DNA of 64,000 bases, from positions 81,671,785 through 81,735,784 of the forward strand of contig JALGQZ010000002.1 in assembly GCA_023105745.1 (NCBI GenBank). The letters are read 5' to 3'. The stretch is from Austropuccinia psidii (Eukaryota > Basidiomycota > Pucciniomycetes > Pucciniales > Sphaerophragmiaceae). A program made the translations under genes and the position numbers. The notes beneath the pieces are model-generated. The model saw nothing but the letters and a program-made list of their open reading frames with translations, did no database searches and was not told where the DNA came from. Of this stretch, positions 8,334 through 56,374 are shown one piece after another (positions within the stretch are counted from its first letter, which is position 1; each line of letters starts with the position of its first letter).

Positions 8334-9013
8334 AAATGCTTGGTTTTCATTTTTTAGACACTTCTTGGCCAGAATCAAGCAACTCACCACAAGAAGGACC
8401 AACCATCAGGATGTTTCTTTATTTCTTTTCTTTACTCTCATTTTCTCTTATTCTTTTATTTTCTTTCTTTCTTTACTTGTATAATTTTCTTTCTTTTATT
8501 TCTTTAAAGCAGCAGCATCCCCTCCCCAAGTCATGCATTGGGAGGTTCCATATATCTTTTATTTTTATTTTTATTTTTTTGGTTAGTAGTATAAGAGTGG
8601 GAATAGAAGTCAATCCAAATACAACAAGGACAAGGAAACTAGTTTCTCTACCCAATCATCAAAAGTTCACCAGAAGTCATTATTAGGTTCATCTTAATAC
8701 CAGTCAAATTTGGGAATGCAGAAGCAGAAGATTCAAGACATCCAAATCAGTCCATTTCAATCCAAAGCAAATTGACCTCAAGAATGGGGCCATAACTCAT
8801 TTATGGCCCCCCCTCAAAGCCTCAAGAATGAAGGTTCAAAGCCCCTTTGGGGCTGCATTAATCACTGTGGGCCTCCCCTGCATCTTTGGTGAGGCCATGA
8901 TCTTGGTGACCCTGGACCACATCAATGGGTCCAGGCCATAAAGGTAGGTGCCTTGGACTCTGGGCCAATTTATGGTCCCCATCAAATTTGGGCCCAGGGG
9001 GCCTCCAATAGCC
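8334..9013 (+). other. A1 non-coding 3' internal region
   Basis: This region has T-rich runs (8400-8600), a short remnant of the antisense gene, then GC-richer sequence with repeated CC/GG words. No credible sense ORF is present; long open stretches are T-rich and lack an ATG in common with A2 and A3. Confidence 0.6.
8634..8800 (-). pseudogene. Remnant of the antisense accessory gene in A1
   Basis: Read on the minus strand, 8800 to about 8720 matches the 5' flank of the A3 antisense gene (GTTATGGCCCCATT, TCTTGAATCTTCTGCTT). About 8700-8634 then matches its last codons and 3' flank (AACTTTTGATGA, GGGTAGAGA, ACTAGTTTCC). The roughly 1.2 kb between them in A3 is absent. No protein can be made. 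Confidence 0.65.
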
Positions 9014-9740: not shown

Positions 9741-9754
9741 CAAGAGGGGGATAC
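9741..9754 (+). promoter_or_regulatory. A1 polypurine tract
   Basis: CAAGAGGGGGATAC directly precedes the 3' LTR start TGTAAC. A purine run here primes plus-strand DNA synthesis. A2 has the same sequence; A3 has AAGACGGGGATAC. Confidence 0.85.
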
Positions 9755-10516
9755 TGTAACAACCATCCATCCGGGGTAAGGGTATTCATTCACATACTCA
9801 CTCAAACACCTCAAATCAGCATATCCAGCATTGGAAATCAGCATTCAGCTTCAGCAATCTTCATTCTGAAACATGCATACAGCTTGGTACCCCAATACAG
9901 CCTGTCAATACCTGTACAGGTTGGATTCAGCCAGTACAGTTTCAATACACCAGTATGAAACTGTATGATCACTCAAATACACCACACCTCTTGTACAGGT
10001 TCTGTACAGCCGTAAAGGACCTGTATTGGCCAGACTCAATTCAATAATTCAATCCTCTCATGAAAATTCTTCCTCTGGATCAGGGCTGGTGATTCTCACA
10101 TATACCAGCCCTTCTTTCTCCCCCCTGGGGACTTTTCCCCAGTTAATTAATTTAGTTTATTTATTATTTTATAATTATTCTTATCCTTATTTTGGGTATT
10201 ATAATTATTTAGTTTTAAGTTAGTCTTTGCATTTTCTCACTTTGCCTGTACAGTATGAGTTGGGTGGCCATATCCTTATTAACCCTTCTCTTTCCATTCT
10301 GACAGGTTGAAACAGTGGACTTGGACTTGTTTGTGGTTGGCTCCTCTATTTCTTATTCTTATTTCTTTGCTGCTGCTTTTCTCATATCTTTTATTATAGT
10401 AATTCATTCCTTACAATCTTAAGTGTATTCATCTTTCCACATCCTTGAGCCCTCCTTAAGTGAGTCCCGGTTTACTGAGTGCCAGGCCCTCTTCCCTTCG
10501 AAGAGCCCCTGTGACA
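9755..10516 (+). repeat. A1 3' LTR
   Basis: 762 bp, same ends as 1235-1996. It contains the AGTTAATTAATTTAG segment (10141-10155) that pairs with the primer site after the 5' LTR. Confidence 0.95.
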
Positions 10517-17164: not shown

Positions 17165-18838
17165 TGTTTTGACATATCAGGATGAAGGGCAGTTAATCTG
17201 TCCTTCTGTTTAAGAAACCAAGACATGGGCCTGTCCCTCTCAATATTAAAATGGCTTCTTCAAAAGAATTTTCCATTCCAAATCTCCAGGAATCATTAGC
17301 CCATTTGGAAATAATTTGTTCTTTCCACCAAGGCCAAGAATGTTTACCATGGTCTTGTCTCATTTTGTAATACCATTTCTCTGCTGATCTGGTAGATAAT
17401 GAGTGTAATCTGGCACTTATTTATTCATCTGGTATGTTCAAGTCTTCTTTGAACATATCAATTGTTTTCATAAATTCCATATGATTATATTCTCCCTCAC
17501 CATTGAAGGTTGGCCATTCCTCTCATTTTGGAATGTCTTTGAAATTGCAAGCAGTTTCCACCTAATTACTTGCGATGGTATGATGTAAATCATTAAGCAC
17601 ATTTCTGTCAAGAATTGGTGTGGATTGCCTTGGCAATTGATTTTTGAGTGATATATTATTAATACTTAATTGAATTTCTTCTTTTAATTCAAGTCTTGCT
17701 TTATCACTTTTTTCCAATTGTTCTTGGAAAAGAGCTGCATTGTGACCAGTTTAATTTTCCAAGTTTTGAACTTGTAATTTCAATTCTCTTAACCCTCCAG
17801 TTATAAAAGAAATTGAATTGTCATCTGGTTGATTGAGAAAAGTAACTTTAGACTCAATTCTTGCACAAATTTGCGTCAAAGACACAATATTGTCTTTATT
17901 AACATTTTCAAGCCCAATAATGGTCTTTTGTTGTTCTTTCACTTGTAATATCTCATTACCCAGCTTTTGTTGGATATACTCAAATATTTTAAACTTTGTT
18001 ATAGTTTCTTTATTACAAGATTCAAATTGAGTTACAAGTTTAACAAGATCTATTTCTTTGGGAAAGATTGGCTCAATCATTCCTCCTCCTTGTTTTTTAA
18101 TTCCATCAGATTTCTTGCCATGTTGAACACATTGTCCATGGCTGTCTTTTCTTTCTTTGTGATTCTGTAATTCTGCGGGTGAGGCTTTTTTCATTTGGGC
18201 TTTGCCTTTTCCTTTGCCTTTTGCTTGCCCTTCTGATTGGTCTTTGGGGCTTGCTTGGGCTTGTTTGGCACTTGTTGAGGCGGATTTTTGCTGGTGGATG
18301 CTTGGGGAGCTTCCACTGGACTGTTTTCCTTGCCTTGGGCCAACTTCTTCTTCTGATCTTCTGATAACATGCTTTGGTTTTTCAACCAAGCTTTTATCTG
18401 TTGGACTTGTCCTTTGCAAGACATTGGTGTCCAACCCTTCAGAAGATCTTCGGTCTTTTCTGGCCCCATGAATTTCTTCACCTGAAGATAAGAGTTCATG
18501 GTGCCTATCCAAAGAATTGGGAGAAGTTCCCACTCTTGCTGTTTGGCGGCCATAAACCAGTTCTTGTATTGAGACTGGTAAATCTCCACTACTGCCTGTT
18601 GGAATTGATTCAGGTCTAACAGCAATAGCAGTTATGTCAGCTTATGGACTCTCAATAAGAGGTTCAAAGGTGCTGGCTAACCTTTGGGAACTGGTGGAAG
18701 TTCTGGCATCCTCCATTTGCGGCTCTCCTCTGGGCTGACATTCTTGTTGTTTTAATTTGTGACTGGAATGTCCTGGTCCAGATCCATTTGATTGGATGGA
18801 GTAATTACTTCCACTTCTAGTAGGAGTCATTGCACGTC
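17165..18838 (-). pseudogene. gag: B gag pseudogene, main frame
   Basis: Starts with MTPTRSGSNYSIQSNGSG at 18830, a start shared with F. A TAA at 18642 interrupts it; it then continues 18533-17751 as a Ser/Lys-rich region and a coiled-coil-like stretch. A damaged capsid region follows (17750-17165), in which WPTFNGEGEYNHMEF is readable but broken by stops and frame changes. Over about 18660-18050 a second frame is also open (separate entry). Confidence 0.85.
18050..18655 (-). CDS. Overlapping +1 frame over B gag (conserved ORF, degraded)
   Basis: In the frame +1 to gag, 18625-18191 is open for 144 codons. Landmarks are AVVEIYQSQYKNWF, WELLPILWIGTMNSYLQVKK, LLKGWTPM and a Lys/Pro-rich linker. 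Past a TGA at 18191 the same frame still reads [19 protein letters not shown] and LMELKNKEEE, then a second TGA and FPKK before TAG at 18050. These words match the same-frame proteins of E and F better than the main gag frame does. There is no ATG at its start. Function unknown; two stops make this copy a relic. Confidence 0.55.
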
Positions 18839-18878
18839 AATTTTAAGAAAAAGTAGACTATTAATGGATTGAATTCAC

Positions 18879-18995
18879 CTGCTGGACATTTAAAGGGTTC
18901 TTTGGTTATTAAACCCCTTGGTGCTGGGCTGGTTTGAATTTCAACACTAGATTCTGAGGCTTCAGAGTCTGAAGAGCGGTCTCTAATTGATGACA
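18879..18995 (-). other. Exon-like leader block of B
   Basis: A 117-base block on the minus strand is preceded by a pyrimidine run ending CTCTAG and followed by GTGAATTC. It is open and acidic/Ser-rich (SSDSEASESSVEIQTSP). Similar blocks precede gag in F, E and C, each opening with TG after AG. This suggests a spliced leader exon; not proven. Confidence 0.4.
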
Positions 18996-27645: not shown

Positions 27646-29538
27646 CTATGGCATAGACTCTTTTCTTTGCCTTTGGACAGTTGTTGGCATAGTGGTCTGT
27701 TGAACCACACTTTCTTTGGGTTTGTCTTTAAACTCTACCCTGAAAGGTTGTTTCTCTTTGAAACTACTGCTCTTATATGGGGTAAATTTCCCTATATTAG
27801 TCCTTTTCCTTATGTCTTGTAAGGTGTTGGCAATGTCATCTAGAGTGCAATTCTGGTTGGATCTGCATTTTAATGCATGCTCTAGCTCTCCTGGCAATTG
27901 TATCAGGAGTTTGTGATTCCTCATTTGGATTTTCATCTGAGGATCAATGGCTTTGAGTCTTTTAGACTGTCTAAGACACCACTCATATGGATCTTTGTCC
28001 ACAGAGTATTTGTCATTTTCAAATGACATGGTCTTTTGCCATATCCAAGTTCCATTACTGTACTTTTGGATGATTTGACTCTTCCACCATGGCCAGTTTC
28101 TTCTGCCATGGATTTCTTTCATTTCTGTGTACCATATACTAGCATGACCTTTAAATGCAGTATTCAATCTAACAGTGATCCAGTAGTCTGGTATGCTTGG
28201 TACATCAATGAAGAGTCCATCAATATAATCTATGAGCCCAATATGATCATATTCTCCTGATCCAGAGAATTTGGGCCAGTTTGAGGCCTCAGGAAGCTGT
28301 TTCAAGGCTTCCTTCTCTAAATAAGACATGCCATCTCCATCTTGGTATTGTGATGGGGATCTTGCCTTATTCAACAACATGGCATCTGGTTTGATGTCAT
28401 CTGGTTGATATGGATTATCCATAACTTGGCCTTGTGGTTGGGGCTTCAAGTTTTGGTAGGCATTAAGCAATTTATTAATGTCTTGGTCCAGACACTCCCT
28501 GTCCCTTGTGCTGTGGTGTTGTTCTTCAAAGACTGTATTCAGTCTTTTGTTGGTTTCTTCAGAGGCTTTGCTCAGTTGAGCATACCCTTCTTGAAGATTT
28601 TTAACTATCTGTTCCAAGGAGGCTTGAGTTTGTCTCATCCTTTCTTGGCCAGCTTTAATTTCTGCAAACTGCTTTGCAGATTGTTCAGCATATTGGGACA
28701 TTTGTAACCACAGTGTATCACTGTTGATGTTACTCTCAGATGTGACAATGTTATTTTCAGTCTGCGTGGGGGTAATGTTTCTATTACTAGGACTACTAGT
28801 TCTACAGTGGTTTACAACTACTTCTGGGTCTTGTGTATTTCTTTTACCAAATCTAACAGCTTCTGGATCATGGGGTCTGACTCTTTCCTCCTCTAGTTGA
28901 AGGAGGCTTTGTTCTTGCCCTTGTTTCCTTGTCTTCTCCTGGAAACTTCCTGGAATTGTGAAGAATGGTGACTATTGGCCACTGATCTGCTGGTTCCTGA
29001 CTGGTGTGAAGCCACTGGAGAGATTATTTGGCCTGCTCCTTGTGAGCCTGAAGGAATCTGAGTAGGCCCTGTCTGGGTTAACTGTTCTTCTATAGCTTGG
29101 ATAGTGGCTTGATTCTCCCTTATCCTCTGTGCCCTTGCCTCCAGGAGTCTGAACTGCCTGGTAGGATTCCAACCTTTGGTGATTACCATCAGGTCTTTGA
29201 AGTCTATCTCTTTGAGACAGATCTTCTGGCAACTTGCTCCAAGTTCTGCCCAGTGACTTGCTAGGTTGAACCTCTTGTTGTCCATGCTCCATTGAAATAA
29301 GTCTTTGAGGAGTTGGTGTAGCTGAAAAACTTGATCCATATCCTTCCAGTCCTCTGGTTTGAGGTTCCTGTTGAATTGAAGTGTGAATGGAAAGGTTGAT
29401 ATTATCTCCCTCATTGTTTTGCCATCCACCACTGTTTCCAAGGTGTCTTCTTTCAGGTCTTCTGGTTCTAGACAAGCCTTCTCTGTCCTCTGGCTGGTTC
29501 CTTTGGAAGCCAAGGTCTCTGAGGTATGCAGGGGACAT
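27646..29538 (-). pseudogene. gag: C gag pseudogene, main frame
   Basis: The main frame starts at ATG 29538 (MSPAYLRDLGFQ). It has one TAG at 28972 and otherwise remains open through 28701 into a coiled-coil-like region and the capsid (WPKFSGSGEYDHIGLIDYI, HGRRNWPWWKSQIIQKYSN). A frameshift near 27715 hits the zinc-knuckle region, whose CGSTDHYANNC lies in another frame and runs into the protease. The N-terminal 190 codons overlap a second open frame. Confidence 0.85.
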
Positions 29539-29552
29539 ATCAGTGTTTGCAA
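28893..29552 (-). CDS. Overlapping +1 frame over C gag (219 codons)
   Basis: An uninterrupted 219-codon frame lies +1 relative to gag and starts from a non-ATG codon. It shares the layout of the B, E and F overlapping frames: a helical N-part (HQLLKDLFQWSMDNKRF, LASHWAELG), then a GWNP motif (VITKGWNPTRQF), a charged helix, a Ser/Gln-rich linker and a basic end (RRRQGNKGKNK). It lacks the DAMxNxFxMAR tail of the other three. The frame remains open although the main frame has a stop. Function unknown; possibly an accessory particle or RNA-binding protein, which is inference. Confidence 0.55.
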   Translation of the reverse strand: MQTLICPLHTSETLASKGTSQRTEKACLEPEDLKEDTLETVVDGKTMREIISTFPFTLQFNRNLKPEDWKDMDQVFQLHQLLKDLFQWSMDNKRFNLASHWAELGASCQKICLKEIDFKDLMVITKGWNPTRQFRLLEARAQRIRENQATIQAIEEQLTQTGPTQIPSGSQGAGQIISPVASHQSGTSRSVANSHHSSQFQEVSRRRQGNKGKNKASFN

Positions 29553-29762
29553 GCAGTCAAAAACTTTATGCTGTTAGGGTATTTACCTTTGACTGTGCCT
29601 TGTACAAATTGATTATCTGCTGATTTGGGCAGTTTGCCTTTGGAGGTTACAACTGGGTTAATAATTGTGATCTTCCCTGTACAAGTGGTCAAGGTTGGTT
29701 TACCTTGTATTGAACCAGAGTTTTGTGGTTTTCTACTCCTCTGAGTGGCTATTGGTGTTCAC

Positions 29763-29886
29763 CTTTTGGCTGTAATGAGGCCTTCACTAAGCCTTTTTCC
29801 TTTGCCCATGCTGCCCTCTGGTTCTGAGGGTGTCACTGGTGTGTTGGCCTGTGACTGGGTCTCAAGTGGTATGAAGTTTTCTTCCA
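29763..29886 (-). other. Exon-like leader block of C
   Basis: 124 bases preceded by GTTTGATTCAG and followed by GTGAAC. Open, acidic then basic (EENFIPLETQSQANTPVTP, KGKRLSEG). Positionally equivalent to the blocks in B, E and F. Confidence 0.4.
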
Positions 29887-30459
29887 CTGAATCAAACAGG
29901 AAAAAAGAGGGCTTATGTCAGTTAAGACTTCTTAAAAGGCTGGTTTTGCACGTCATCGAATGGCCGCTGGGCTTGTATATTATTACAATATGCCCTTGTA
30001 TTATGACAATGTAATTGAATTAACAATTCCACGTCACAAATACAGCTTACTGATATGTGGTATACTGTTTGTATACCAATATCTCACAGAATACTTGTAA
30101 TTAGCAAGTATAATTTGTCAAAAGATGGTGTATTACAGGGCAATTGAGTTAACAATATGCCCAAACACGCCTCAACTGTTGGTTTATCAGTATGAGCTGT
30201 CTTTCTTCAATTAAGAAGCAAGACTGTATTAGTGGCTTAAAGTGTTTTTATATACAAAACACGCCAAAAATACTGGTCTTGTGGTTATCAGCCAAATGAC
30301 AGATACTCTTTAAAATATGAGTATTTTTTAAAAAATAAAGTAAAAATATATAAAAATATATATTTTTAAAGAAAGTGACACCTGAAAAGATAAAAAAAGT
30401 TTAAATAAAATGATAATAAAGAGAAAAACTTACTTGTATTAAGTCCAAAAAAGGTTTAA

Positions 30460-30480: not shown

Positions 30481-31363
30481 TGTCAGGATGAGTCTATGTT
30501 GAAGTGGTAATAAAGCTATTTACAACTAAAACTATGACTGTGACACATGGAAAATAGTTTAAAAAAGATTTATAAGGGTTACAGATGGATTTAATTTAAA
30601 ATATAAGGGCTTTACTATAATGGATATAGTGGTGATGAGCAATGTTGAAAGCCCTGGGTGCAGCTTTACCTGTTGGGTTACAATAATAAAGACTACAATA
30701 CTTCAATTTAAGATTATACCTGATTATTAACCAAGAGTAAAACTGTTTTTGACAGTTTACTACGTAGGTTATTCAAGAGCAGGATGAGGAGACAATTCTG
30801 GCTGTGAAAAGCCTCCTTTTTATCCTGAAATGGGGTGGAAAGGGTGCTAGTCCTTTCCACGTAGAGGAAGTGAAGATTTTTTCACTTTCTAGTACTGGCT
30901 TGTGGTTTGCAAACATCCTGTATAGCCTGTATTGGGCTCAGATGTGGCTTTGAAACCTCATCTGGGCGGTTTTCACCAATACAAGGTGAAAATTTTCATT
31001 TGGGGACCTCACAGCCTGATTCTGACGTGTATGACGCGTAGAATGCTGTACAGAAACTGTATGGGACCCCAGTATTGACTGACATATGAGGTATTGAAGT
31101 AAAACATTCTTCTTTGCCTATTTGACACCTCATATTCATGATTATGGGATATTATCCCATGGTAAGGCTGTATATGACAGCAGGTGGGATTTTAACCTTA
31201 AAACAGCCATAACTTTGTCAATTCTTGAGATATAAACCTCAAAATTGGTTCAGTGTGTAGCCCTGTATGTGCTCTACACAATGGTACCTCATTTGATATG
31301 GGTATCATTAAATATGGCAAAGTTATCCCATGTACCAGATTTTTGTACATTTGTGTGTTTTAG
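30481..31363 (-). repeat. C 5' LTR, first part
   Basis: On the plus strand it begins TGTCAGGATG, the LTR end on the coding strand. It runs to the A2 insertion and resumes at 40251. The last part has repeating words (CATAACTTTG.., TAGCCCTG.., GTGCTC) that recur after the insertion. Confidence 0.7.
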
Positions 31364-32124
31364 TGTCACAGGGGCTCTTCAAAGTGAAGAGGGCCTGGCA
31401 CGCAGTAAACTGGGACTCACTTATGGAGGGCTCAAAGATATGGTAAGAAGGAATACACTGAAGAGTGTTAAAGATGAATTGCTAAAAGAATAAATATAAG
31501 AAAAGCAGCAACAAGAAATAAGAGTAAGAAATAGAAGAGCCAACCACAAACAAGTCCAAGTCCACTGTTTCAACCTGTCAGAATGGAAAGAGAAGGGTTA
31601 ATAAGGATATGGCCACCCAACTCATACTGTACAGGCAAAGAGAGAAAAGGCAAAGACTAACTTAAAATTAAATAATTATAATAGCCAAAATAAGGATAAG
31701 AATAATTATAAAATAATAAATAAACTAAATTAATTAACTGGGGAAAAGTCCCCAGGGGGGAGAAAGAGGGGCTGGTATAGGTGAGAATCACCAGCCCTGA
31801 TCCAGAGGAAGAATTTTCATGAGAATAATTGATGACTGAATTGAGTCCGGCCAATACAGGTCCTTTACAGCTGTACAGAATCTGTACAAGAGGTGTGGTG
31901 TATTTGAGTGATCATACAGTTCCATACTGGTGTATTGAAACTGTATTGGGTGAATCCAACATGTACAGGTATTGACAGGCTGTATTGAGGTACCAAGCTG
32001 TATAGATGTTTCAGAATGAAGCTTGCTGAAACTGAATGCTGATAAAATTGCTGGATCTGCTGATTTGAGATGCTTGAGTGGGTGTATGAATGAATACCCT
32101 TACCCCGGATGGATGGTTGCTACA
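31364..32124 (-). repeat. A2 3' LTR
   Basis: 761 bp; the plus strand starts TGTCACAGGGGCTCTT and ends GGTTGCTACA. It pairs with 39508-40250. Confidence 0.95.
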
Positions 32125-39492: not shown

Positions 39493-39507
39493 AGTTAATT
39501 AATTTAA
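39493..39507 (-). promoter_or_regulatory. Candidate self-priming site of A2
   Basis: The coding strand TTAAATTAATTAACT follows the LTR end. It pairs over 12 bases with AGTTAATTAATT in its own 5' LTR (near 39870) and over 14 bases with the 3' LTR version (near 31730). Confidence 0.6.
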
Positions 39508-40250
39508 TGTCACAGGGGCACTTCGAAGTGAAGAGGGCCTGGCACTCAGTAAACTGGGACTCACTTATGGAGGGCTCAAAGATATGGTAAGAAGGAATAC
39601 ACTGAATAGTGTTAAAGATGAATTGCTAAAAGAATAAATATAAGAAAAGCAGCAACAAGAAATAAGAGTAAGAAATAGAAGAGCCAACCACAAACAAGTC
39701 CAAGTCCACTGTTTCAACCTGTCAGAATGGAAAGAGAAGGGTTAATAAGGATATGGCCACCCAACTCATACTGTACAGGCAAAGAGAGAAAAGGCAAAGA
39801 CTAACTTAAAATTAAATAATTATAATACCCCAATATAAGGAGAAGAATAATTATAAAATAATAAATAAACTCAATTAATTAACTGGGGAAAAGTCCCCAG
39901 GGGGCAGAAAGAGGGGCTGGTATATGTGAGAATCACCAGCCCTGATCCAGAGGAAGAATTCTCATGAGAAGAATTGATGATTGAATTTAGTCTGGCCAAT
40001 ACAGGTCCTGTAAAAGAGGTGTGGTGTATTTGAGTGATCATACAGTTCCATACTGGTGTATTGAAACTGTATTGGGTGAATCCAACATGTACAGGTATTG
40101 ACAGGCTGTATTGAGGTACCAAGCTGTATAGATGTTTCAGAATGAAGATTGCTGAAATTGAATGCTGATAAAATTGCTGGATCTGCTGATTTGAGATGCT
40201 TGAGTGGGTGTATGAATGAATACACTTACCCCGGATGGATGGTTGTTACA
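39508..40250 (-). repeat. A2 5' LTR
   Basis: 743 bp; it lacks about 19 bp relative to the 3' LTR around 40010, removing two TGTACAG-type motifs. It ends GGTTGTTACA followed by the TTTAG duplication. Confidence 0.95.
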
Positions 40251-41993: not shown

Positions 41994-43380
41994 TGTTAAC
42001 TTTAATAAGGTCAAAGTTCACACCACATGTGGTGTTAACCATCAGTTTTTGTGTTAAAATTGAGGTGTTGTGTTTAGTTTAGAAGCTATGAGGAATTGAA
42101 GTATTTTCAATTCAATTCAATTGAAATATCAAAATGTGCGCGTGTATTACATAAGTGAACTTTGATTTACATATGAGGTGTAAATTGTTACTGTATTGGA
42201 CTGTACAATTGAATTGAATTACATATGTAAATTATAAGTATAATACATGATGAGGAATTAAAGGGAAAATAAATTGGAAAGATTAAATTTGGGGGGGAAA
42301 AGGAACTCCAGCTCTAAGGGGGAGCTAGACCCCCAAAATCCTTGCTGACAGGCGTGGGATGTCAAAATTCACGCAAAAGTTCATCACTTTTGGCCTGGAA
42401 TTGAGTTACAGGGTCTGTGGACTCAATTGATGATGAGGTTTTGATACCAGCTGGGGTAGTTTTAGCTGTTGCCAAGAGGGTAAAACTACCGTTAAGATAA
42501 AACAATCATAGTAAAAACAGTTTTGACTGGTTTCTACGCCTCTGACACACAGTCTGACGTGTTTTGAAGGCTCTAGGCCTGGTATTGCTATTGTAATGGC
42601 TGATTTAAGGGTCTAAAATGGCTAAAAATGGCTTAAAACAGCCCTTTTTGGTCTAAACCAGGGTTCAATGATGCCATAATTGGCTTTTCTATTGTCAGAC
42701 TGTTTTTCACGACTGACAAGAGTAAATTTTACTTTTGGAGTAAGAGAATTGATGGCTTTAAAAGAATGTCTTCTTTGCCCCACTTTTCTCTTCATGTTAG
42801 AATCTTTTCCTTTTATAATTAGTTTAGACATTGTTAAACCAATCAATCAAATATTCCAACCACCATTTTTAAATCATTTTAATCCTTTTAACCACGTGAA
42901 AAAATCATTATAATCATTGTTTGTAACTTTTATAATCATTTTTACCCCTGAACCACCCCAAAAGTGAATTAAAGCATCTTTCATCACTGTAAACTTTGTC
43001 ACTTTGTTTCCAAATTCACTCTGGTCACTTTTGGGCATGTTTTCTCTTTAATATTCTTTTCAAAGACTCTGTTCTTTAATTAATTGCTTGCAGTTCTTTG
43101 CTCAATTAATTCCAATTGAAATTGCTCTTGAAGAAACTTCTTTTGTAGCCTTAAAATATCTCTTGTAGAGTATTTTTTGGATAAATTTTTATTGTTGGTA
43201 AAACAAGAAATTTTTATAATATTATTTTTTTATACTAATAAAGTTATAAACAATAAAATTGGCGTGTTTTCTCTTAAAAATAATATTTCATACTATTTTT
43301 AATTGATTTTTACCTTATACAAATTTTGAGGACAGGAAAATACTTGATTTTTAATCAAAGTTTCATATCAACACTTTACA
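41994..43380 (+). repeat. E 5' LTR (5'-truncated)
   Basis: 42020-42508 matches 47280-47766. It then continues with unique sequence to ..CAACACTTTACA, followed by the primer site. Comparison with the right LTR implies about 450 bp are missing on the left. Confidence 0.8.
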
Positions 43381-43382
43381 TT

Positions 43383-43400
43383 TGGGGGCCCAGCCATGAT
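43383..43400 (+). promoter_or_regulatory. E primer-binding site
   Basis: TGGGGGCCCAGCCATGAT lies two bases after the LTR end; four bases differ from the F site. Confidence 0.6.
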
Positions 43401-43607: not shown

Positions 43608-43805
43608 TGTCTGACAATGTGGTAAGACAAGAAAACATTGAAACAGCCTCAACAGTCACCAGCATTATTCCTGCTAGTACTATTAATTCAGACCATAATA
43701 GTACTGTTATTGTGACTCATAATAACCAACCGGAACCAATATCTTCTGAATTGATTAACTTGGACATAAGTAATACTCTTCAGAAAGCCAAAGATTTGGC
43801 CAATA
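43608..43805 (+). other. Exon-like leader block of E
   Basis: 198 bases between TTAATTTTAG and GTAAGT, open throughout (SDNVVRQENIETASTV, ISSELINLDISNTLQKAK). Counterpart of blocks in B, C and F. Confidence 0.45.
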
Positions 43806-43855
43806 GTAAGTTTTTTGACGTGAAATTACTATTTTAAGCCTTTTTAACCATAATT

Positions 43856-46201
43856 ATGCCTTCAACCACATCAGGAGCCAGCTATAACCCCTCAAGCAGC
43901 TCCCAAAAAGGTAATAGACGTGATTATGGCAGAGGCCAATCAGGTACAGAAGGAAAAGGGTCAGTTGATGACTTCCAAACAACTAAATTGGGTCATTCTG
44001 AAGCTGATATGACTATTTTACCTTCTAAAAGAGCTGAAACCACCACAACAAGCCTCTGTGGACATATACAAAGCCAGCCACAGTGCATACAACAATGCAC
44101 TTCAATTCAAAGAGTACCAGATCCTTGCAGACCTGTGTAAGAATTGCATGAATTCTTACCTGACAGTAAGGAAATTCCTGGGCCATCCCAACACTTGCAA
44201 ATTGCTCAATGGATGGCATCCATTGATGGAGAAGAAAAACATGATGCTGTTGACACTAGAATGGAGGAAAAAAAACCCTCCACCACCCAAACCAGTGCCA
44301 AAAACAGCCGGAGTGGCCAGCACCAGCAATTCCAACGTGAAAAAACAGCCACAAGTTCCAAACAAGGGCAAAGGGAAGGCACCAGCCCCAAAACCTTACA
44401 GCCAGGGCTACAGAATCCCAAAGATTCAGCAGGATGCCATGGAAAATATATTTCAGATGGCCAGAGCCATGATGGAATTACAGAAGAAGGAGGAAGCCAG
44501 ATTAAGATTCCAGAAATGATTTCTGATATATTTGATTCCATCCCAGAATTGTATGATGCTATAAATGAGGTGAAAAAACATCTTTCTGATAAAAATGAAA
44601 CCATTTGTAACAACATTAAAACAAACAACCTGAGTCTGTGCCAAATTAATGAAACACTTATGTGTTTTGAAAAAGTTTTAAGAACAATTAAAAATTCCAA
44701 TAATTATAATTCTTCTAACAATAAAATAAATGAACAATCTGCCATTATTAAAGAATTAACAGATAAATATTCTAAATTCAATATTGATGACATAATTGAA
44801 ACAAGAATTAAACAAGCCATAAATATTATTAAAACAGATAACAAGAAAGTCCTTGATGACATTTCAAATTCTTTTACTGAAGTAAAGATATATACCATTG
44901 CCTTGAAAAAGTGTTTTGATGCTTCACAAGAAGAAGTATCAAAATTATCAATGAAATTGAATCAAGTCACTGCTGATAACACAAGACAGACAGAGTTATG
45001 GCAAGAACTGACACATAAGGAAGACATGTATAAAGTTGAAGTAATAAATTTAATACAAAGCTTCCAACATGAATACAGAAATTCCCAAAGGTGTAGCAAC
45101 AGTAAAATGAATGACATTGAACAAATACTGAACACCTTACCAAGAATGTCTACACCTCTAAATCAAAATGAGGGCACAAGAATTCCAAATCCACAAGTAT
45201 TGGATCCTGATAATTCACAATTAAAAAATGAATTATCCACTTCTTTTCATAACTTGGAACCATCAATGGGCCAAGCACTCTTGAAAGAAGTTCCAAAACT
45301 TAAAGAATGGCCTCACTTCAGTGTTGAAGGAGAGTATGACCATATGGAATTCATTAGAGGTATTGACATGATCAAAGAGGATTTTGAATTACCAGACAGA
45401 TTGGTAACAGCCAGGTTTAACACCTTGTTTACCAGATCAGCTCACAGATGGTACATCAAAATAAGACAAGCACATGGACACCAGAGTTGGACTTGGTGGA
45501 AAACCCAAATCATCAACAAATGGGCAAATGATGCTTGGAGGTTTAAAGTTGAAACAGCCTTTGAATCTGCCAAATTTAATGCTGATAAAGACAAAGCTTT
45601 ACCATGGTTTTGCCAACAAAAGGACAGATTAACAGCATTATATCCTGACATGTCAGAATTTATGATCCATAAGAAAGTCCTGAGACAATGTGGAGGTGAC
45701 TTAGAGCATGCTATCAAAAGAAGGACTACTGAACAATCTTCAGCAGAGGATATTATCAATATACTAGAAGAAGTAACCACCAGAACCAAAATTGGTTCTA
45801 GTAGGGTGAATATTGAAACAAGGTTTAATACACCTTGGAAAGACTCTGTGGACAAAAACCCCAAAGAAAATTCTAATAATGTTGGGTATAAATCTGCAGA
45901 TACAGTCAAAAAGTGCCATATTTGCCAAAGCACCACCCATTTAGCTAATACATGTCCAAAAAGTTGGAAAATCAATGAAATTAATATTGGAAAGGGACCT
46001 GATGTTGAAAAAGATGACATAATTGAAGACAATTCAGATGATAAGTCATCCATATTTTCTGAATCTTCAAAAGATATAGAAAATATCAATGCCACTTTTG
46101 ACATCATGGAATCTTATTCCCACTTGCCACAATTGAGCAATAGTCAACTTGATTTATCAAAAGCTCAAGGGGCACAACTTATGAAAACCAAATCCCAATA
46201 G
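43856..46201 (+). pseudogene. gag: E gag, main frame with one early stop
   Basis: The frame starts at ATG 43856 (or 43858 region; PSTTSGASYNPSSSSQKG) and has a TAA at 44138. From 44144 it continues unbroken for 685 codons: Ser/Gln-rich linker, long coiled-coil-like region, capsid (WPHFSVEGEYDHMEFIRGI, HGHQSWTWWKTQIINKW), and an intact CCHC knuckle CHICQSTTHLANTC. It ends TAG 46199 near the place where protease would start. The first part overlaps the conserved +1 frame. Apart from the single stop this gag appears able to encode a full capsid protein. Confidence 0.85.
44011..44519 (+). CDS. Overlapping +1 frame over E gag
   Basis: Open from about 44011 to 44519 in the frame +1 to gag, without a start ATG near its conserved beginning. 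Words: LLKELKPPQQASVDIY, LADLCKNCMNSYLTVRKFLG, LLNGWHPL, a Pro/Lys-rich linker, then YRIPKIQQDAMENIFQMAR and MMELQKKEEARL. It spans the main-frame stop at 44138 without damage. Compared with F, the tail is about half identical in this frame and less so in the main frame (judged by eye). Function unknown. Confidence 0.6.
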
Positions 46202-47766: not shown

Positions 47767-49792
47767 TGTGAGCCTTTGAGATATGACCACATACCCAAAA
47801 AGGTCACAAAAAAGACTCAGAATAATTATACCTTTAATATAATTATATTAAAATTACTTAGAATAATTATACATTAAGAATAATTACTTAAACATACAAA
47901 AAATACCATAAATTGGTACAAAAATTGGTTTAACTTAAAAACCAATGAATAAACATGTAAAAGAAATTATACCATTGGATTCCCCATGGAAAAATACACA
48001 TATACCATTTTTATGGCATATCTGTAAAGTCAATATTTAAGGAATTATAAGGTATAATACCTTATAAAAACCATAAAACCTTATTTATCTCAAAAGCTAA
48101 TCAAACAACATGTGAAATAAATTGTACAAGTGGATTCCCCATGAACGTTCACACATAAAACAATTAATGAGCTAGTCTCCAATGTTAATACTTAAGGAAT
48201 TATCCTGAATATATGCACTTTTTTGGTCAACGCATATATTCAAGGATCATAGCTAATATCTTCTAAACTATACATGATAGAATGATGAACCAAAAATAAA
48301 GTTACCACGTACTTACTGTAAGAACACAGATATGAACTTTATTTTACAAATTATAAACAAGGTTAAAACCTATGATGAATTATTGATAAAAATCACCAGA
48401 GCTGTTGACCACTTTGTTGTGAAAGTGTTCCAAACTTAAAAAAAAGTATACAGTTGGATTCTACTAGCTCATTAGTGAAGAATGATTTAATTTTTATTAT
48501 TAAATTCAGGGTATAACCCCCTGAAATCAAGGTTTGAAGTTTAAAATATTGAATTTTGACAGAAAAGATGAGTTACAAGAAAAATCATCAAAATTAGAGT
48601 TTTGATGATGTAATGAAGAGCTCTTGGAAGCATAATAAGGTTATGCCAGGCTGTCAGAATTCACTCTCTGAATTGCTGTAGCGTGTAAATCTTAAAAGTT
48701 ATTGAGGATCAAAGTTTGAGCTTAATTTGAGCAGTTATGATCACACACTGTAACCTTAATTTAAGTTTAACAGTCTTAAGAGAGATAAAATTGGTGAATA
48801 CTATTAGTTTATGATTAAAACTAATAAAATCCACGAAATTTGGGGTTCTACCAAGCCTCTGATGTCATCAACTTTAGAGTTATAGTGATAACTCTAAATA
48901 ATGGTGTAATAATGATGTAATATGGTTTGATAATGATGTAATCATCTCCAAACCTTAAAATATTGATCAATTCCAGTGGATATGATCAGTACACGTCTAC
49001 TAGAAGCCTGTTGGACTCTAGGAGGGAGGTATTTACTATAAATAGAGCTCTTTTTACTCTATTTTCCCCTCAGACGCATCAAAAACATTAAATCAATTAA
49101 ATAAAAGGTAATTTCTTTATTCTTTATATATAAAACTCTTATATTATTAAAGACCAAAGACCATCTTAATATTAATCACTATTTTTACGTGATTAAATCA
49201 ATTCTTTAATTGTTTTTGTCATAAATCTCTATATAAACTCATTTCCACGTAAAATCAAGAAATTTAGTAATTTTCTTTATTTTTTATTGTAAATACAATT
49301 TGAAAAAGTTGTATTATATTCTTTTGGCGTAAAATATCTCAAAATTATTATTTCAAGTGTTAAAAGTAGGTTATTTCATCTTATTATAATAATTTCTCTC
49401 TTATTATTACTCTTAATAATTCTTAATTAATATAAATAGTATTTATATTAATATATAACTTTAATATTGGTAGTATTATTGTTATTAATTTTTTTTTATT
49501 TATAAAAAACAGTTTTTTACGCCTTTATTATTTTTTGGTAACAATAATAAAGAGCTTTATAATATATTAATTATTTTATATTAATATATTATTTATAATA
49601 TTATAATTTCATATAATATTAATTATATTATTATATTTATTTAATAATATAATATTTTTACGCCATAATAATAATATTTCTTCATTATTATTATGATTTT
49701 AATCTTATTTATTTCAATTATAAGGACATTCAGAGTACAATAAGTAATAAATTAGTAATTTTTTACTTATTGTTTCATAGTCAAACCTTACA
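47767..49792 (+). repeat. F 5' LTR
   Basis: Begins TGTGAGCC after E sequence and ends CAAACCTTACA before the primer site; 2026 bp and AT-rich. The 5 bases before it are ATAAA; the partner duplication is outside the window. No gene within. Confidence 0.85.
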
Positions 49793-49794
49793 TT

Positions 49795-49812
49795 TGGGGG
49801 CCTGGCCGTGAT
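49795..49812 (+). promoter_or_regulatory. F primer-binding site
   Basis: TGGGGGCCTGGCCGTGAT two bases after the LTR. It implies a tRNA primer ending ..CAGGCCCCCA. Confidence 0.7.
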
Positions 49813-50295
49813 ATTTACTTAAAAGACCTTTAAAAAGATTCTATTTGGGTTTATCCAGTAATAAATTATATTTATAATAATAAAATTATATAATAATTTT
49901 ATATTTTATTGATTTTAAAAGCTATTGAGGCATTTGGAAAGCAATTGTACTGTCTTACACGTGGTTTTTCACATCCTTAGACTTGCAAGAACTTTCTTTG
50001 AGTGACTCTAGTGATTAAAAAAGATAATTTATAAATTAAAAATAATTTCTATTATAATTTAATTTTATAAAGAATCATATTAATTTTTATTTTATTCCTT
50101 AAAAATAAAAAATATAAAAAATATTAAAAAATATTAAAAACCAATAAAAAAAGTTATTTTTATTCCTTTTTATTCATTTCTTTATTCATTTCAAGTTTTT
50201 AAAGATATAAAAGCAATTTCTACGTGGAAAATTGCCATATCTTGCCAAAAATAACACTTCTGATAAAAAGACTTATATTTATTTGTCTTTTTTAG

Positions 50296-50445
50296 TGTTT
50301 GAAGATAACCCAACAGAAGACAACCAAGCTACTGTTGAGAGGTTGGTGGAAGAAACTTGTCAAAGTTCTCCAACACCATTTATCACCAAAAGAAAGAAAG
50401 CTAAGAAATTAGACTTTCCAGGACCCACCATTCAAGACTCTGAGG
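50296..50445 (+). other. Exon-like leader block of F
   Basis: 150 bases between CTTTTTTAG and GTGAGC, open, with an acidic then basic composition (EDNPTEDNQATVERLVEE, TKRKKAKK). Part of a short ORF from 50232. The same position and flanking splice-like signals occur in B, C and E. Confidence 0.45.
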
Positions 50446-50519
50446 GTGAGCACCTCTTTTTAAATTGCCATAAAAGAATTTTATTCTAAAATACTTTTAT
50501 TTTTTCTTATTCTTTAATT

Positions 50520-53500
50520 ATGACTACCAGAAGAGGTTCCCAATACTCCATCCAATCAGATGGAGCTGGACTCAGAAGTAGAATTGATCCCTCAAAAGGG
50601 AAAAGAAAGGGCAATATCCCCAGTGGAACAGAATCCACACAAGGAAGTGCCTTATCCCAAAGGCAAGTCCCAGAAATGCCCATAATATCTGAGCCTGAAT
50701 TGGAACTAAGTATGAGTAACTCAAACAGGTACAAATCACATTCAGAGGGCTCAGATAGACATCTACATGAGCCAGTACAAGCAGTATTACACAGTATACA
50801 AGGACAAAGACTGGGAAATGCTGCCTCAAATACACCAAGGAGTGATGAACTCCTGGCACATCCTGAAAAAGTTCCTCAAAGAGGAGGAGATAGTGAAATA
50901 CTCCAATGGATGGAATCCACTGTCATCCAAACCTCAAATCAAAAAAATCAAGGATTATCATGCCAAAAAGAGGGAGGCAACCAAGGAAGAAGCCCCAGTA
51001 GCTTCTACCAGCAAGCCTCAAGTCAACCCACTTCCCCAAGAAGGGAAGAAGAACAAGAAAAAGCATTGGAGGAAACCATATTCCCCAAGCTACAGAATCC
51101 CAAGAATTCAAAAGGATGCCATGGACAATGTCTTCAACATGGCCAGAACCTTGATGGAATTCAAGGACAAGGAAGAGCAAAGAATGAGACAACCTCATTT
51201 CCCAAAGAAATAACCTTGTCCAAAGATGTTGTAAATACTTTAACAGAAATTAAAAATAGTATATTACCTCTAAAAGAAATTAAAGACAGTTTATTATCAC
51301 TACAAGAAATAAATAACAATTTATCTTCTTTAACAAAAATTGTTGTACAAAACAAGAAAGAAATTGACAACATTAAGTTTATTGTTGAAAATAATAAACC
51401 AAAAAATTTAATTGACAATACTCAAAAATTAATACAAGGACAACAAGAATTGTATAAATACATAAAAGATATCAAAGACAAGACTTTGACAATCAATTAT
51501 GATGTGAGTATTGACAATCTTACAGAAAAATTAAATAAATTAAGTATTTCTGTAGAAAAATTTGAAGAAAAGACTTCATCACACCAAAAATTACTTTTGG
51601 ACCATGTGGAAAAAAGTGATGAAGCAAGAATGCATCTGAAAGATGATATTCAAAGTGAAATAAGGCTTATTACTGAAAAAATGGATAAAATTAATGAGGC
51701 TAATTTAAATATGTCAAAGTTATCAACACCATTTTCCCATATAAGAAGCCCAATTAAAACAAAAGAGGAATTGTCAAATCCTTTCATAACAGACTTGAGT
51801 CACCAAGACAATAACCAAGTCTTAATGAAGGAAGCACCTCAATTGAAGGAATGGCCAACATTCACAGGAGAAGGTGAATATGACCACATGTCATTTATTA
51901 AAACAATTGACATGTTACAAGAAGACTATGCCATACCAGATGAATTAATCACTGCAAGATTACATTCATTATTTGAGAAATCTGCAAAAAGATGGTATTA
52001 TGGCATAAGACAGACAAATGGTAAAAATACCTGGTCTTGGTGGAAACAAGAAGTAATCACCAAGTGGGCAAATGATGCCTGGAGGTATAAGATAGAAAAT
52101 GCATTTGAAAACTCCTTCTTTGACCCAGAGAAAGATAAACCTTTAACTTGGTTCCTAAAACAAGTTGAAAGGCTTAATGCACTGTACCCAGAAATGTCAC
52201 AGAAGATGGTGCATATGAAAATACTTAAAAAATGTGGAGGGGAACTAGAACATGCCCTAAGAAGCAGGTGTATAGAACCATGCTCCACAGAAGAGTATAT
52301 AAATGCACTAGAAGATATAGTGACAAGGACAAAAATTGGCAGGACTTGGAAAAAATTGGACATTAAAAGCCCAAATAAACCATTTATCAAAAAAGATAAG
52401 TCAAAAGAATCCTTTAAGCCCAATACATCCAACAATAATGAGCAAAGAAAATGCCATAAATGTGGAGGTATTGGACACTTAGCCAATAATTGCCTTAAAA
52501 AAGCAAAGATTAATGAAATTGTGGAAACAGAAAACCACAATGACAAAGAAGAGGAATCTGACTCTGAAAAAGAGACAGAAGAGTCAAAAAGCTCTGAAAG
52601 TGATGAAATAAATATAATTAATGCACAAATTAATAATATTGATATAATTTATGAAGTACTGGATGTTAATTCAAACTTGCCACAAGTTGGAACATCTGAC
52701 ACAAATCTGACAAACATACATGATGCCAAAATGTATAGAACCAAACCTGCAAGAGGAATGGGATATACAGCAGGAAAATCAAGTATTAGTATTGTTATGG
52801 TTGATAACCAAGAAGGAAAGGTTAACTTGGATACAGGAGCATATTGCACTTGTGTTGGAAAAAGTTATTTAAAAACCATTGTCCCAGACTGGCAAGAAAA
52901 ACTTATGCCAATACAAGGTGTCAAATTTAGTAGTGCAAGTGAGAGCATGAAGCCCCTTGGAATAATTGATTTAACACTAATTTTTCCTCATCCCTCACAA
53001 TGTGTCAGAATTAAAGTAGAGTTTGTAGTAATGGACAACTGTACTAGTAATCATTTCATACTTGGGAATGACTACTTATCAATCTATGGTATAGATATCT
53101 CCAACCAAAAGGATAGATATTTTACCATAGGAGATAACAAAAGACAAAAGTTTGGATTCTTAAATAACAAAAAACAAATCACAGTTATTAAGAATGAAGA
53201 AAAAATTCCACAAAAGGAACTTTTTATATCTGAACAACTCAAAGAGGCAGAATTCAATCAAGAATTAACAGAAAAAATGAAAGAAAAATTGATTGACCTC
53301 TTATTTAAGTATCAAAATGCCTTTGCAACTGACAAAGAGCCACTAGGTGCCATAATTGGGCATGAAGTGGATAGAATTCTTAATGTAGAAAAACCTTACC
53401 CACCTTTATTAAGAAGACCTGCTTATCCAGCCAGTCCAAGAGCTAGAGAAGCCTTAGAGGTACACATTAAAGAATTAATGGACCTAGGAGTATTAAGAAA

Positions 53501-55602
53501 GGTTGGACATAATGAACAAGTAGAAGTTACTACACCTGTCATTATAACTTGGCATAATGGAAAATCAAGGATGGTAGGGGACTTCAGAGCCCTGAATACC
53601 TATACCATTCCAGACAGATATCCAATACCCAGGATCCATGAGACATTGACCCAATTGTCACAAGCTAAGTTCATCACAGCTATGGATGCTCTTAAGGGTT
53701 TTAATCGAAATGTCTTAACAGACAATGCCAAGAAACTACTAAGAATAATAGTCCATTGTGGAATTTTTGAATACTTAAGAATGCCATTTGGAATAAAAAA
53801 TGCACCTTCCCATTATCAAAGAATGATGAATACCATATTCCCTGAAGAATTATCAGAAGGATGGTTAATTATCTATATTGATGATATCATAGTTTGCTCA
53901 GAAACTTGGGAAAATCACCTTACAAGACTAGAAAGGGTACTACAGAAAATAGTCCAAGTAAATATGAAAATTTCCTTGAAAAAGTGTCATTTTGCAGATA
54001 GTGAACTAAAAGCACTAGGACATGTTGTATCTGGCCTTAGTCTAGGCATAGACAAAAATAAAGTAGCAGCAGTACTACTTAAACCAATGTTTCAAACCAA
54101 AAAGGAAATTCAATCATTTCTAGGATTTTCTGGTTACTATAGACAGCATATAAAGGACTTTGCAAAGATTGCTAAATCCTTGTATAAGCTATGTGACCAA
54201 CAAACAGTCTATGAGATGACAGAAGAAAGAGTCAAGGCATATGAAGAATTGAAAAATTCCTTAACAAATGCCCCATTTCTTCTGATGCCAGATTGGAAAT
54301 TACCCTTCAAACTGTACATTGATGCTTGTGGAGAAGGACTAGGTGCTGCACTTCACCAAACACAAATTATCAATGATAAACCAGTGGAAGGACCAATTTG
54401 TTTCATTTCAAGGTAGATAAAGCCAACAGAAGCAAGGTATGTAGCAAGTCAAATGGAATGCTTATGCCTAGTGTGGGCTTTAGAAAAACTGCATCATTAT
54501 TTGGATGGCACAGTATTTGATGTAATAACAGACTGTAATGCTGTGAAATCACTATTAAATATGAAGACTCCAAATAGACATATGCTGAGATGGCAAATTG
54601 CTATCCAAGAATATAGAGGAAATATGACTATTGTTCATAAATCTGGAAATATTCATAAAAATGCAGATGGTCTTAGCAGATGGGCTCTAGCAAATACCCC
54701 TGACAATCCAGCATGGGTACCACAAGAAGAGCATCATATAGAAGGAATATGTGTTACAGACATTGGCACAGAATTCTTTAACCAAGTTAAAGAAAGCTAT
54801 AAGACAGACAAAAATTGCCATATCTTAAGCCAACTTCTAATGAAAGACTGCAAAGATCCATCACTTTCATCAAAACTAGATGAAATATGGAAAAAGGCAT
54901 ATGATGAAGGAAGATTTCACCTCCTTGATGGAATCCTTTACCATAGAACAAAACACACATGTGTTATGGCCTTAACAGACAGAACACTAATAAACACTAT
55001 TTTACATGAGTGTCATGATAGTGTTGCATATGGACATCTCTCAGAAGATAGGACACTAGAGAGGGTGAAAACCTGCTCTTGGTGGCCAAATTGGAAGAAA
55101 GATGTTGCAGAATACTGCCAAACCTGTGACAGATGTCTAAAAGCCAACAGAGCCACAGGAAAGAAATTTGGAATGATGATCCAAATCCAAGAACCAAAAT
55201 CCCCATGGGAAATAGTTCATATGGATTGGGTAACAGCCTTACCTCCAGGAGGAAACAGGAGTTATAATGCATGCCTAGTGTTAGTTGACAGGTACAGTAA
55301 AACTCCCATGTTCTTACCATGTCATAAAGATGACACAGCTATGGATACAGCCATAATGATATGGAATAAAGTCATTAGCCACACAGGCTTATTCCAAAAT
55401 ATTATAAGTGACAGAGACCCAAAGTTCACTTCAGCATTATGGACAAATCTCCATAACTTGTTTGGGACGAAATTGTCATTCTCAACAGCTTATCATCCTC
55501 AAACTGATGGTCTAGCAGAAAGAATGATACAGACCCTAGAGGATATGATCAGAAGATTCTGTGCTTATGGGCTTGAATTCGAAGATTCTGATGGTTTTAC
55601 CC
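50520..55602 (+). pseudogene. gag-pol: F gag-pol, one TAG and cut by A3
   Basis: A single fused frame from ATG 50520 ([17 protein letters not shown]). Residues 1-230 are low-complexity and overlap the +1 frame; about 230-430 are coiled-coil-like. The capsid has [18 protein letters not shown]. The CCHC knuckle starts at residue 645 ([14 protein letters not shown]), protease is LDTGA (Asp 771), RT motif A is MDALKGF (Asp 1056) and the palm is YIDD 1119-1122. A TAG at 54414 inside RNase H replaces a Gln codon seen in B. After it the frame continues through RNase H ([10 protein letters not shown]), the integrase finger and the DDE core ([33 protein letters not shown]) until A3 enters at 55603. 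No gag-pol frameshift is needed. Confidence 0.93.
50716..51213 (+). CDS. Overlapping +1 frame over F gag (about 165 codons)
   Basis: Open from 50716, after a TGA at 50713, to 51213, +1 relative to gag-pol. An internal ATG lies at 50767, but the conserved region begins before it ([14 protein letters not shown]). Features: [20 protein letters not shown], a GWNP motif, a Lys-rich linker, and a helical tail [34 protein letters not shown] and B have the same blocks in the same order and the same relative frame; C shares the first half. It may be reached by splicing from the leader block or by +1 frameshifting; no function is known. Confidence 0.65.
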
Positions 55603-56361
55603 TGTCACAGGGGCTCTTCGAAGTGAAGAGGGCCTGGCACTCAGTAAACTGGGACTCACTTATGGAGGGCTCAAAGATAAGATAAGATGAGACACACTTA
55701 AGAGTGTTAAAGATAAATTGCTAAAGAATAAATATAAGAAAAGCAGCAACAAAAGATAAGAGTAAAAGGATAGAAGAGCCAACCACAAACAAGTCCAAGT
55801 CCACTGTTTCAACCTGTCAGAATGGAAAGAGAAGGGTTAATAAGGATATGGCCACCCAACTCATACTGTACAGGCAAAGAGAGAAATGCAAAGACTAACT
55901 TAAGATTAAATAATTATAATACCCAAAATAAGGATAAGATTAATTATAAAATAATAAATAAACTAAATTAATTAACTGGGGAAAAGTCCCCAGGGGGGAG
56001 AAAGAGGGGCTGGTATATGTGAGAATCACCAGCCCTGGTCCAGAGAAGAATTTTCATGAGAATAATTGATTGTTGAATTGAGTCTGGCCAATACAGGTCC
56101 TGTACAGCTGTACAGAACCTGTACAAGAGGTGTGGTGTATTTGAGTGATCATACAGATTCATACTGGTGTATTGAAACTGTATTGGGTGAATCCATCCTG
56201 TACAAGTATTGACAGGCTGTATTGATGTACCAAACTGTATGCATGTTTCAGAATGAAGATTTCTGAAACTGACTGCTGATGCAGATACTGGATTTGCTGA
56301 TTTGAGGTGTTTGAGTGGGTGTATGAATGAATACCCTTACCCCTGATGGATGGTTGTTACA
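55603..56361 (-). repeat. A3 3' LTR
   Basis: 759 bp; the plus strand starts TGTCACAGGGGCTCTTCG and ends GGTTGTTACA. Confidence 0.95.
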
Positions 56362-56374
56362 GTATCCCCGTCTT
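56362..56374 (-). promoter_or_regulatory. A3 polypurine tract
   Basis: The coding strand AAGACGGGGATAC abuts the LTR; one C interrupts the purine run. Confidence 0.75.

Follow-up and report, generated by a model that had tools for sequence, protein, structure and literature searches.

The start of the gag gene in four probable Ty3 families of long terminal repeat (LTR) retrotransposons from the rust fungus Austropuccinia psidii raises the question of whether one stretch of DNA is read there in two frames. The families, designated F, E, B and C, lie in a 64-kb window of the 1.015-Gb genome. In each of them a frame placed +1 relative to gag is open, at 50716-51213 in F (165 codons) and 44013-44519 in E (168 codons) on the plus strand, and at 18191-18631 in B (146 codons) and 28893-29573 in C (226 codons) on the minus strand. 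The original prediction, drawn from the letters of the window, had taken these frames for a functional gene overprinted on gag. The open frames, their +1 phase and a GW.P motif in F, E, B and C were all borne out, and the second frame proved genuine and subject to selection. It probably encodes the end of an accessory protein translated from a spliced RNA, with Gag-Pol translated from the unspliced RNA, so that the same stretch would be read in two frames.

Selection on the +1 frame and against gag stops

The conserved part of the +1 frame is termed exon 4. It spans 50729-51213 in F (plus strand, stop at 51211-51213), 44032-44519 in E (plus) and 28893-29518 in C (minus), where the window copy stops at 28893-28895 and most listed copies reach 251 codons. 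In B it covers 18050-18615 (minus) up to the stop typical of the family, and the window copy has an earlier stop at 18191-18193. When one pair per family was pooled, 42, 36 and 122 differences fell on +1 positions 1, 2 and 3 of exon 4 (approximately 747 sites each), the third position exceeding the second with P 1e-13. The +1 third position was the most variable in 25/25 pairs of the pairwise set, with P <0.05 against position 2 in 19. The remaining six pairs are close, misaligned or small. Control regions followed their own frames. Behind the +1 stop, counts by gag position in three families were 44, 19 and 81 (approximately 362 sites each), and a further Ty3 family of the window gave 20, 23 and 61 in its gag (226 each); the other two frames of that gag contain 8 and 19 stops.

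Copies beyond the window, designated here by L numbers, came from two sources. Twenty 10-kb stretches taken at round coordinates contained 12 extra copies that were not selected for an intact frame: 2 F-like, 5 E-like, 2 B-like, 1 C and 2 of a relative of C, which has 43-46% identity to C and L025C in the +1 frame. A search of the same genome with the four +1 proteins gave 39,795 (F), 39,227 (E), 14,804 (C) and 32,407 (B) first-look candidates, in sets that may overlap. The best 150 per family were scored, lists that are biased toward good +1 matches, and a further 10 F, 8 E, 6 C and 6 B copies were taken from the search. The commonest open +1 lengths among the best 150 rows were 165 (F), 221 (E), 251 (C) and 193 (B) codons. 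The decayed copies L029B and L012E, together with L015B, L013 and L018C, were excluded from the gag-openness, overlap-aware and pooled position counts, L018C being included in the expected-stop test. L022 and L024 were included in the gag-openness and overlap-aware counts (the latter with an indel).

Overlap-aware ratios of non-synonymous to synonymous change were calculated with the transition bias set to 2 for 13 pairs from the four families, which share copies and hence are not independent. The +1 ratio was 0.13-0.40, with 95% upper bounds of <=0.80 in 13/13 pairs. Neutral change in this frame, named beforehand as the outcome that would speak against a gene, was therefore not seen, and the ratios and position counts together support a functional second gene. 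Frequent stops in young copies had been named likewise. Well-preserved copies mostly have one open frame of the length typical of their family, a count that is an unfair test because the lists favour good +1 matches.

Openness of the +1 frame is by itself weak evidence, since only 1.4-4.9 stops are expected there given the gag protein (P 0.02-0.29 in 12 sequences). This is the point in favour of chance openness or a compositional artefact with gag alone coding, as an open +1 frame would then not be rare. Such an explanation is already contradicted and can scarcely be true: differences within the overlap peak at gag position 1 and not at position 3, and the within-family control regions are normal. 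The case for +1 coding is carried by the pattern of change, not by openness.

Over the same stretch the gag ratio was 0.80-2.17, with an interval that spans 1 in 12/13 pairs and lies just above 1 in one. Stops in gag were assessed by holding the +1 protein fixed and drawing synonymous codons at each sequence's own usage, which gave an expectation of 5.8-9.4 gag-frame stops in exon 4 over all copies tested. Nine well-preserved copies contain none against 6.1-9.4 expected (P 0.0002-0.0008), four older copies contain 0-2 (P 0.0008-0.011), and the stop number of the third frame is close to expectation. A T at the +1 wobble position never precedes AA/AG/GA codons in F (0/30), L014 (0/35), L046 (0/38) or L041 (0/52), against 22/70, 21/75, 27/71 and 29/111 before other codons (26-38%). 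Five further copies, of nine tested in total, have 0-2 such cases. The +1 ratio is low and the gag ratio is about 1, yet gag stops are avoided; both frames are thus apparently used, the +1 frame for its sequence and gag as an open passage. On this point the claim of overprinting on gag may have the direction reversed, because the +1 frame is constrained and the gag stretch over it is free.

The gag ratio of about 1 would also suit an arrangement in which the +1 frame alone is coding in the overlap and Gag starts downstream. This is highly unlikely, as gag-frame stops are strongly avoided and the gag ATG is kept in 41/41 aligned copies of the four families, being lost in the older copy L015. 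In B, moreover, changes in putative exon 3 fall mainly on gag position 3 (see below).

Some copies weigh against selection in both frames. Exon 4 has little wobble excess in L013/L018 (9, 9 and 10 differences), one of the six pairs set apart above, or in L039/L025 (10, 7 and 11). From its ATG, gag is open over the aligned stretch in 10/11 close F, 4/10 close E, 4/7 B and 4/8 C copies, all chosen for a good +1 match, and in five older F and E copies it is broken in all. The window copies of E, B and C each have one gag stop, at 44138, 18644 and 28974, respectively, that of B being inside the putative intron that precedes the +1 exon; F is free of them.

An upstream exon and a putative spliced route to the +1 frame

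How the +1 frame could be reached is indicated by a second coding stretch that lies upstream of gag, termed exon 2. Its coordinates are 50296-50445 in F and 43608-43805 in E on the plus strand, and 18879-18995 in B and 29587-29886 in C on the minus strand. The stretch is bounded by a 3'-splice-like AG|TG and a 5'-splice-like GT. In its own frame, one pair per family has 11, 12 and 37 differences (247 sites each, P 3e-6). It is open in 12/13 F, 13/13 E, 7/7 B and 5/8 C aligned copies, the window copy of C having one in-frame stop. An in-frame Met occurs in no F, one E, no B and two C copies, and the window copy of F has no in-frame ATG.

In all four families, joining at the predicted splice sites brings the upstream exon into phase with the +1 frame. 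The splice dinucleotides are retained in 13/13 F, 13/13 E (one site 12/13), 7/7 B and 8/8 C copies. Putative intron 2 extends over 50446-50530 in F (GT-AG, 85 nucleotides (nt)), 43806-43881 in E and 18817-18878 in B, and C has a single putative intron at 29519-29586 (68 nt). In 41/41 aligned copies the gag ATG stands inside this putative intron, shortly before the 3' site. It is the start of the main frame at 50520 in F, and lies at 43856-43858 in E (13/13), 18828-18830 in B (7/7) and 29536-29538 in C (8/8). Splicing would consequently remove the gag ATG.

In F, E and B an extra small exon and a second intron are proposed between this intron and exon 4. Exon 3 would cover 50531-50662 in F, where it is open in both +1 and gag, 43882-43959 in E and 18682-18816 in B. 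Putative intron 3 is at 50663-50728 in F, 43960-44031 in E and 18616-18681 in B. Its lengths of 66, 72 and 66 nt, respectively, are multiples of 3. Gag reads through this putative intron and is open across it in the window copy of F. The single intron of C is not a multiple of 3, and gag starts inside it. The F intron has GC-AG ends, with GC at its start in 13/13 aligned copies, and the corresponding dinucleotide is GT in B and E. Exon 2 would likewise be in phase if joined directly to exon 4. Stops in the +1 frame occur within putative intron 3 in 13/13 F, 7/7 B and 4/13 E copies. Among the older E copies, L018 and L011a have one stop in common there, and L011b and L012 another. It was observed besides that putative intron 3 of B has 0-3 differences of 65 in four pairs whose exon 4 differs by approximately 9%; this low variation perhaps reflects an extra constraint, such as splicing signals together with gag.

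Routes that need no splicing have also been considered for the +1 frame, namely internal initiation, leaky scanning and a +1 shift out of gag. In F, 12 codons of exon 4 precede the first +1 Met, which is found in 13/13 aligned copies, and many of the best 120 database proteins matching F are 148 residues long, i.e. they begin at this Met. In most E copies the frame runs open from an exon 3 with a Met into exon 4. An early AUG is lacking in exon 4 of E, B and C, the first Met standing after 38 codons in most E copies, 21 or 39 codons in B and 34 in C. In B, selection is evident before any exon 4 Met (4, 3 and 16 differences at +1 positions over 39 codons in L047/L050), and upstream stops bar the way in 7/7 copies. 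No common slippery site was seen by eye, and the selection on exon 2 would be left unexplained. Access without splicing is thus unlikely, and an internal AUG in exon 4 was rejected, not being common to the families.

A different arrangement would make the +1 product the N-terminus of Gag, joined to gag-pol by a -1 ribosomal frameshift at the +1 stop. The sequence C CCA AAG is found right before this stop in F and in some B copies, and its phase fits a -1 shift into gag. It is absent at this place from the window copies of E and C, from the other E copies examined and from B copies L048-L050. Gag has its own AUG in the aligned copies, and it is kept open upstream, for which a -1 frameshift has no need. 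This arrangement is very unlikely, and a -1 frameshift at the +1 stop was rejected on the ground that the slippery heptamer is not common to the families.

Several observations weigh against the spliced route itself. The splice dinucleotides are short, and the sites were selected with the +1 phase in view. The upstream exon is without wobble excess in L022/L024 (8, 6 and 4), L013/L018 (1, 3 and 2) and L039/L041 (2, 5 and 4). Most of the best 150 E copies are open through putative intron 3 (221 codons), so that with a stop in only 4/13 aligned copies this need not be an intron, and a Met in that exon 3 could then act as the start. Exon 3 of B has 1, 9 and 3 differences in the +1 phase, i.e. mostly at gag position 3, and the gag head therefore seems to count more there. 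A scan of the leaders from seven copies for donor-like words revealed no exon 1 with a start codon. Twelve such words were present, none of them in B, and nine of the 12 end in A; these could form A|UG with the TG of exon 2, which is not taken as evidence. Only in C and the closely related L025 is there a donor with an in-phase upstream ATG; it lies over 1,080 bases upstream and is unproven.

Two further features of this region were noted by eye. A TRSG..Y-like gag head is present in F, E and B. Close to the gag ATG or the upstream exon are TGACGTG words, at 43810-43830 in E, 18835-18850 (minus) in B and 29950-29965 (minus) in C, and similar words are frequent in the LTR and leader of L013.

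The computation demonstrates selection on the +1 frame, on the upstream exon and against gag stops, together with conservation of the splice signals and of the gag AUG. The functional gene of the original prediction is thereby retained, though not as a stand-alone open reading frame (ORF): the frame instead resembles the last exon of a spliced gene that starts upstream of gag. Use of the splice signals, production of the protein and the start codon itself are predicted from the sequence as follows. Unspliced RNA would be translated from the gag AUG into Gag-Pol, the gag stretch over the overlap being a passage that is kept open and is nearly indifferent in sequence. Splicing would drop the intron with the gag AUG and place the +1 frame in phase behind the upstream exon, perhaps with the further small exon between them in F, E and B. 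The start codon may be created across the first junction. The product would be an accessory protein of approximately 210-330 residues with a helical domain and a basic linker, to which F, E and B would add a helical tail.

The predicted +1 proteins of the four families and their host elements

The impression that F and E, and F and B, agree more closely in the +1 frame than in gag was confirmed by alignment. Identities are 60/149 in +1 vs 39/135 in gag for F-E, 72/158 vs 55/160 for F-B and 68/161 vs 47/153 for E-B, or 40-46% in +1 and 29-34% in gag over the overlap of the three families. Shuffle z scores among them are 32-40 for +1, 7-16 for gag and 12-19 for the non-coding third frame. Nucleotide alignments of F, E and B, from which out-of-phase columns were excluded (up to half of the capsid stretch in pairs with B), agree with this. 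In the first part of the overlap divergence peaks at gag position 1, the +1 wobble position, at 0.67-0.74, with 0.35-0.47 at the other two codon positions. In the downstream capsid stretch the peak is at gag position 3. A point against is the comparison between families directly behind the +1 stop (F 51214-51800): a clear peak at the gag wobble position is missing there, and many columns are out of phase.

The claim that all four families encode the same protein holds for F, E and B, which are homologous, and fails for C. Pairwise z scores of C with the other +1 proteins are 0.6-1.8, with no significant similarity beyond GWNP, and a profile comparison gave a probability of 0.7% with 16 columns aligned around GWNP. 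C has its layout in common with F, E and B, and homology is not demonstrated beyond this motif; this too counts against a single protein family. The YRI...MAR tail ascribed to F, E and B is likewise qualified, as in the window copy of B it lies behind an in-frame stop. Most of the best 150 B rows have a single open frame of 193 codons that includes the tail.

An AlphaFold model of the F +1 protein, built with 27 sequences, contains five helices and is of moderate confidence (predicted local distance difference test (pLDDT) 72.6, predicted template modelling score (pTM) 0.41); that of C has a pLDDT of 56.8. A structure search with the F model gave no PDB or viral match below E 0.001, a sequence search of PDB gave nothing below E 0.15, and a Pfam scan of the +1 proteins gave nothing above cut-off. 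The nuclear localization signal (NLS) pattern K[KR]x[KR] is found in exons 2 and 4 of F, as KRKK in exon 2, and is absent from the scanned exons of E, B and C. A leucine-rich export signal pattern is absent from exons 2 and 4 in one copy each of F, E, B and C.

The F +1 query has 831 database matches, of which the best 120 are without exception predicted proteins of Austropuccinia psidii MF-1, the myrtle rust fungus. In the MF-1 gene annotation this element frame (50716-51213) appears as numerous individual hypothetical proteins. This serves as a warning for annotation, since at least 120 listed predicted proteins among the 831 matches to F are this element frame.

The host element of F has a gag-pol main frame at 50520-54416 (plus) from the ATG, with a TAG at 54414-54416 inside the RNase H-like domain of the window copy. 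RVT_1, RT_RNaseH_2 and zf-CCHC were above the Pfam cut-off, the domain order was taken from reading the sequence, and the integrase lay outside the scan. A block of approximately 765 bases occurs five times in the window (55603-56363, 1233-1996, 9753-10516, 31359-32124 and 39503-40250), in both orientations and with 86-97% identity, and one copy begins where the F pol reading breaks off. Just inside the elements, a word TTT(G/C)GGGGGCC..GCC.TG was seen by eye at 49790-49815, at 43380-43400 and in L013 at 8440-8465 (minus). This common word is perhaps the primer binding site.

Comparison with known systems

In the text of a 2025 survey of rust transposable elements (PMC12210899) the word 'gag' is absent. 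The literature search, whose coverage left out most subscription journals, yielded no description of a gene of this kind in elements of rusts or other fungi.

The Rev-type proteins of complex retroviruses are small, are made from spliced RNA, have frames that overlap other genes and carry basic nuclear signals. The gag AUG of these viruses lies inside the intron of the Rev-type RNA. Unlike the frames described here, which overlap the start of gag, those of the Rev-type proteins overlap env.

Ty1 has a restriction factor, p22/p18, which lies in the gag frame. It resembles the present case in that the gag region of an LTR retrotransposon gives rise to more than one product, and differs in coming from a subgenomic transcript initiated within GAG (PMC8458377). 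Additional ORFs of plant LTR retrotransposons (PMC7264820) are similar as extra conserved frames beside gag-pol; the word part 'overlap' is absent from the text of that paper. The LTR retrotransposon BARE1 has a subgenomic RNA, produced by splicing, in addition to its genomic RNA (PMC3735527). Unlike the system proposed here, BARE splicing gives Gag itself, from a one-frame element with no second frame.

The closest precedent found is CERV of Cer1, a Ty3/gypsy element of Caenorhabditis elegans. CERV has 517 residues, five exons and a KRKK nuclear signal, and is needed for export of the genomic RNA (PMC10309623). The frame of its exon 4 differs from that of gag, and its authors placed a stop there that left Gag unchanged (PMC10309623). 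The rust elements are like it in being probable Ty3/gypsy hosts with a putative exon out of frame with gag, the spliced mRNA being only predicted here, and in the KRKK sequence, which stands in exon 2 of F.

On this analogy alone, the likely role of the product would be that of a nuclear regulator that promotes the use or export of unspliced genomic RNA. Because the scanned exons of E, B and C are without the NLS pattern and no export pattern was found in exons 2 and 4, the analogy is a weak guide to function. A fuller scheme would place a Rev/CERV-like gene in the start of gag, where splicing deletes the gag AUG and turns the RNA into the message of a nuclear protein, and feedback promotes the unspliced state in several families; this scheme is possible, though rather doubtful.

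The host elements are virus-like and very abundant, with tens of thousands of candidate places in this rust genome. If confirmed by RNA data, the locus would be an unusual two-in-one gene and would offer an abundant system for the study of dual coding between a constrained domain and an unconstrained open partner. In contrast to CERV, the rust elements have an upstream exon that is not part of gag, splicing would remove the gag AUG, and the product would terminate within that gene. Spliced accessory genes with an out-of-frame exon, shown in a nematode Ty3/gypsy element, would then occur in fungi too, in a layout that differs in that splicing takes out the gag start codon.
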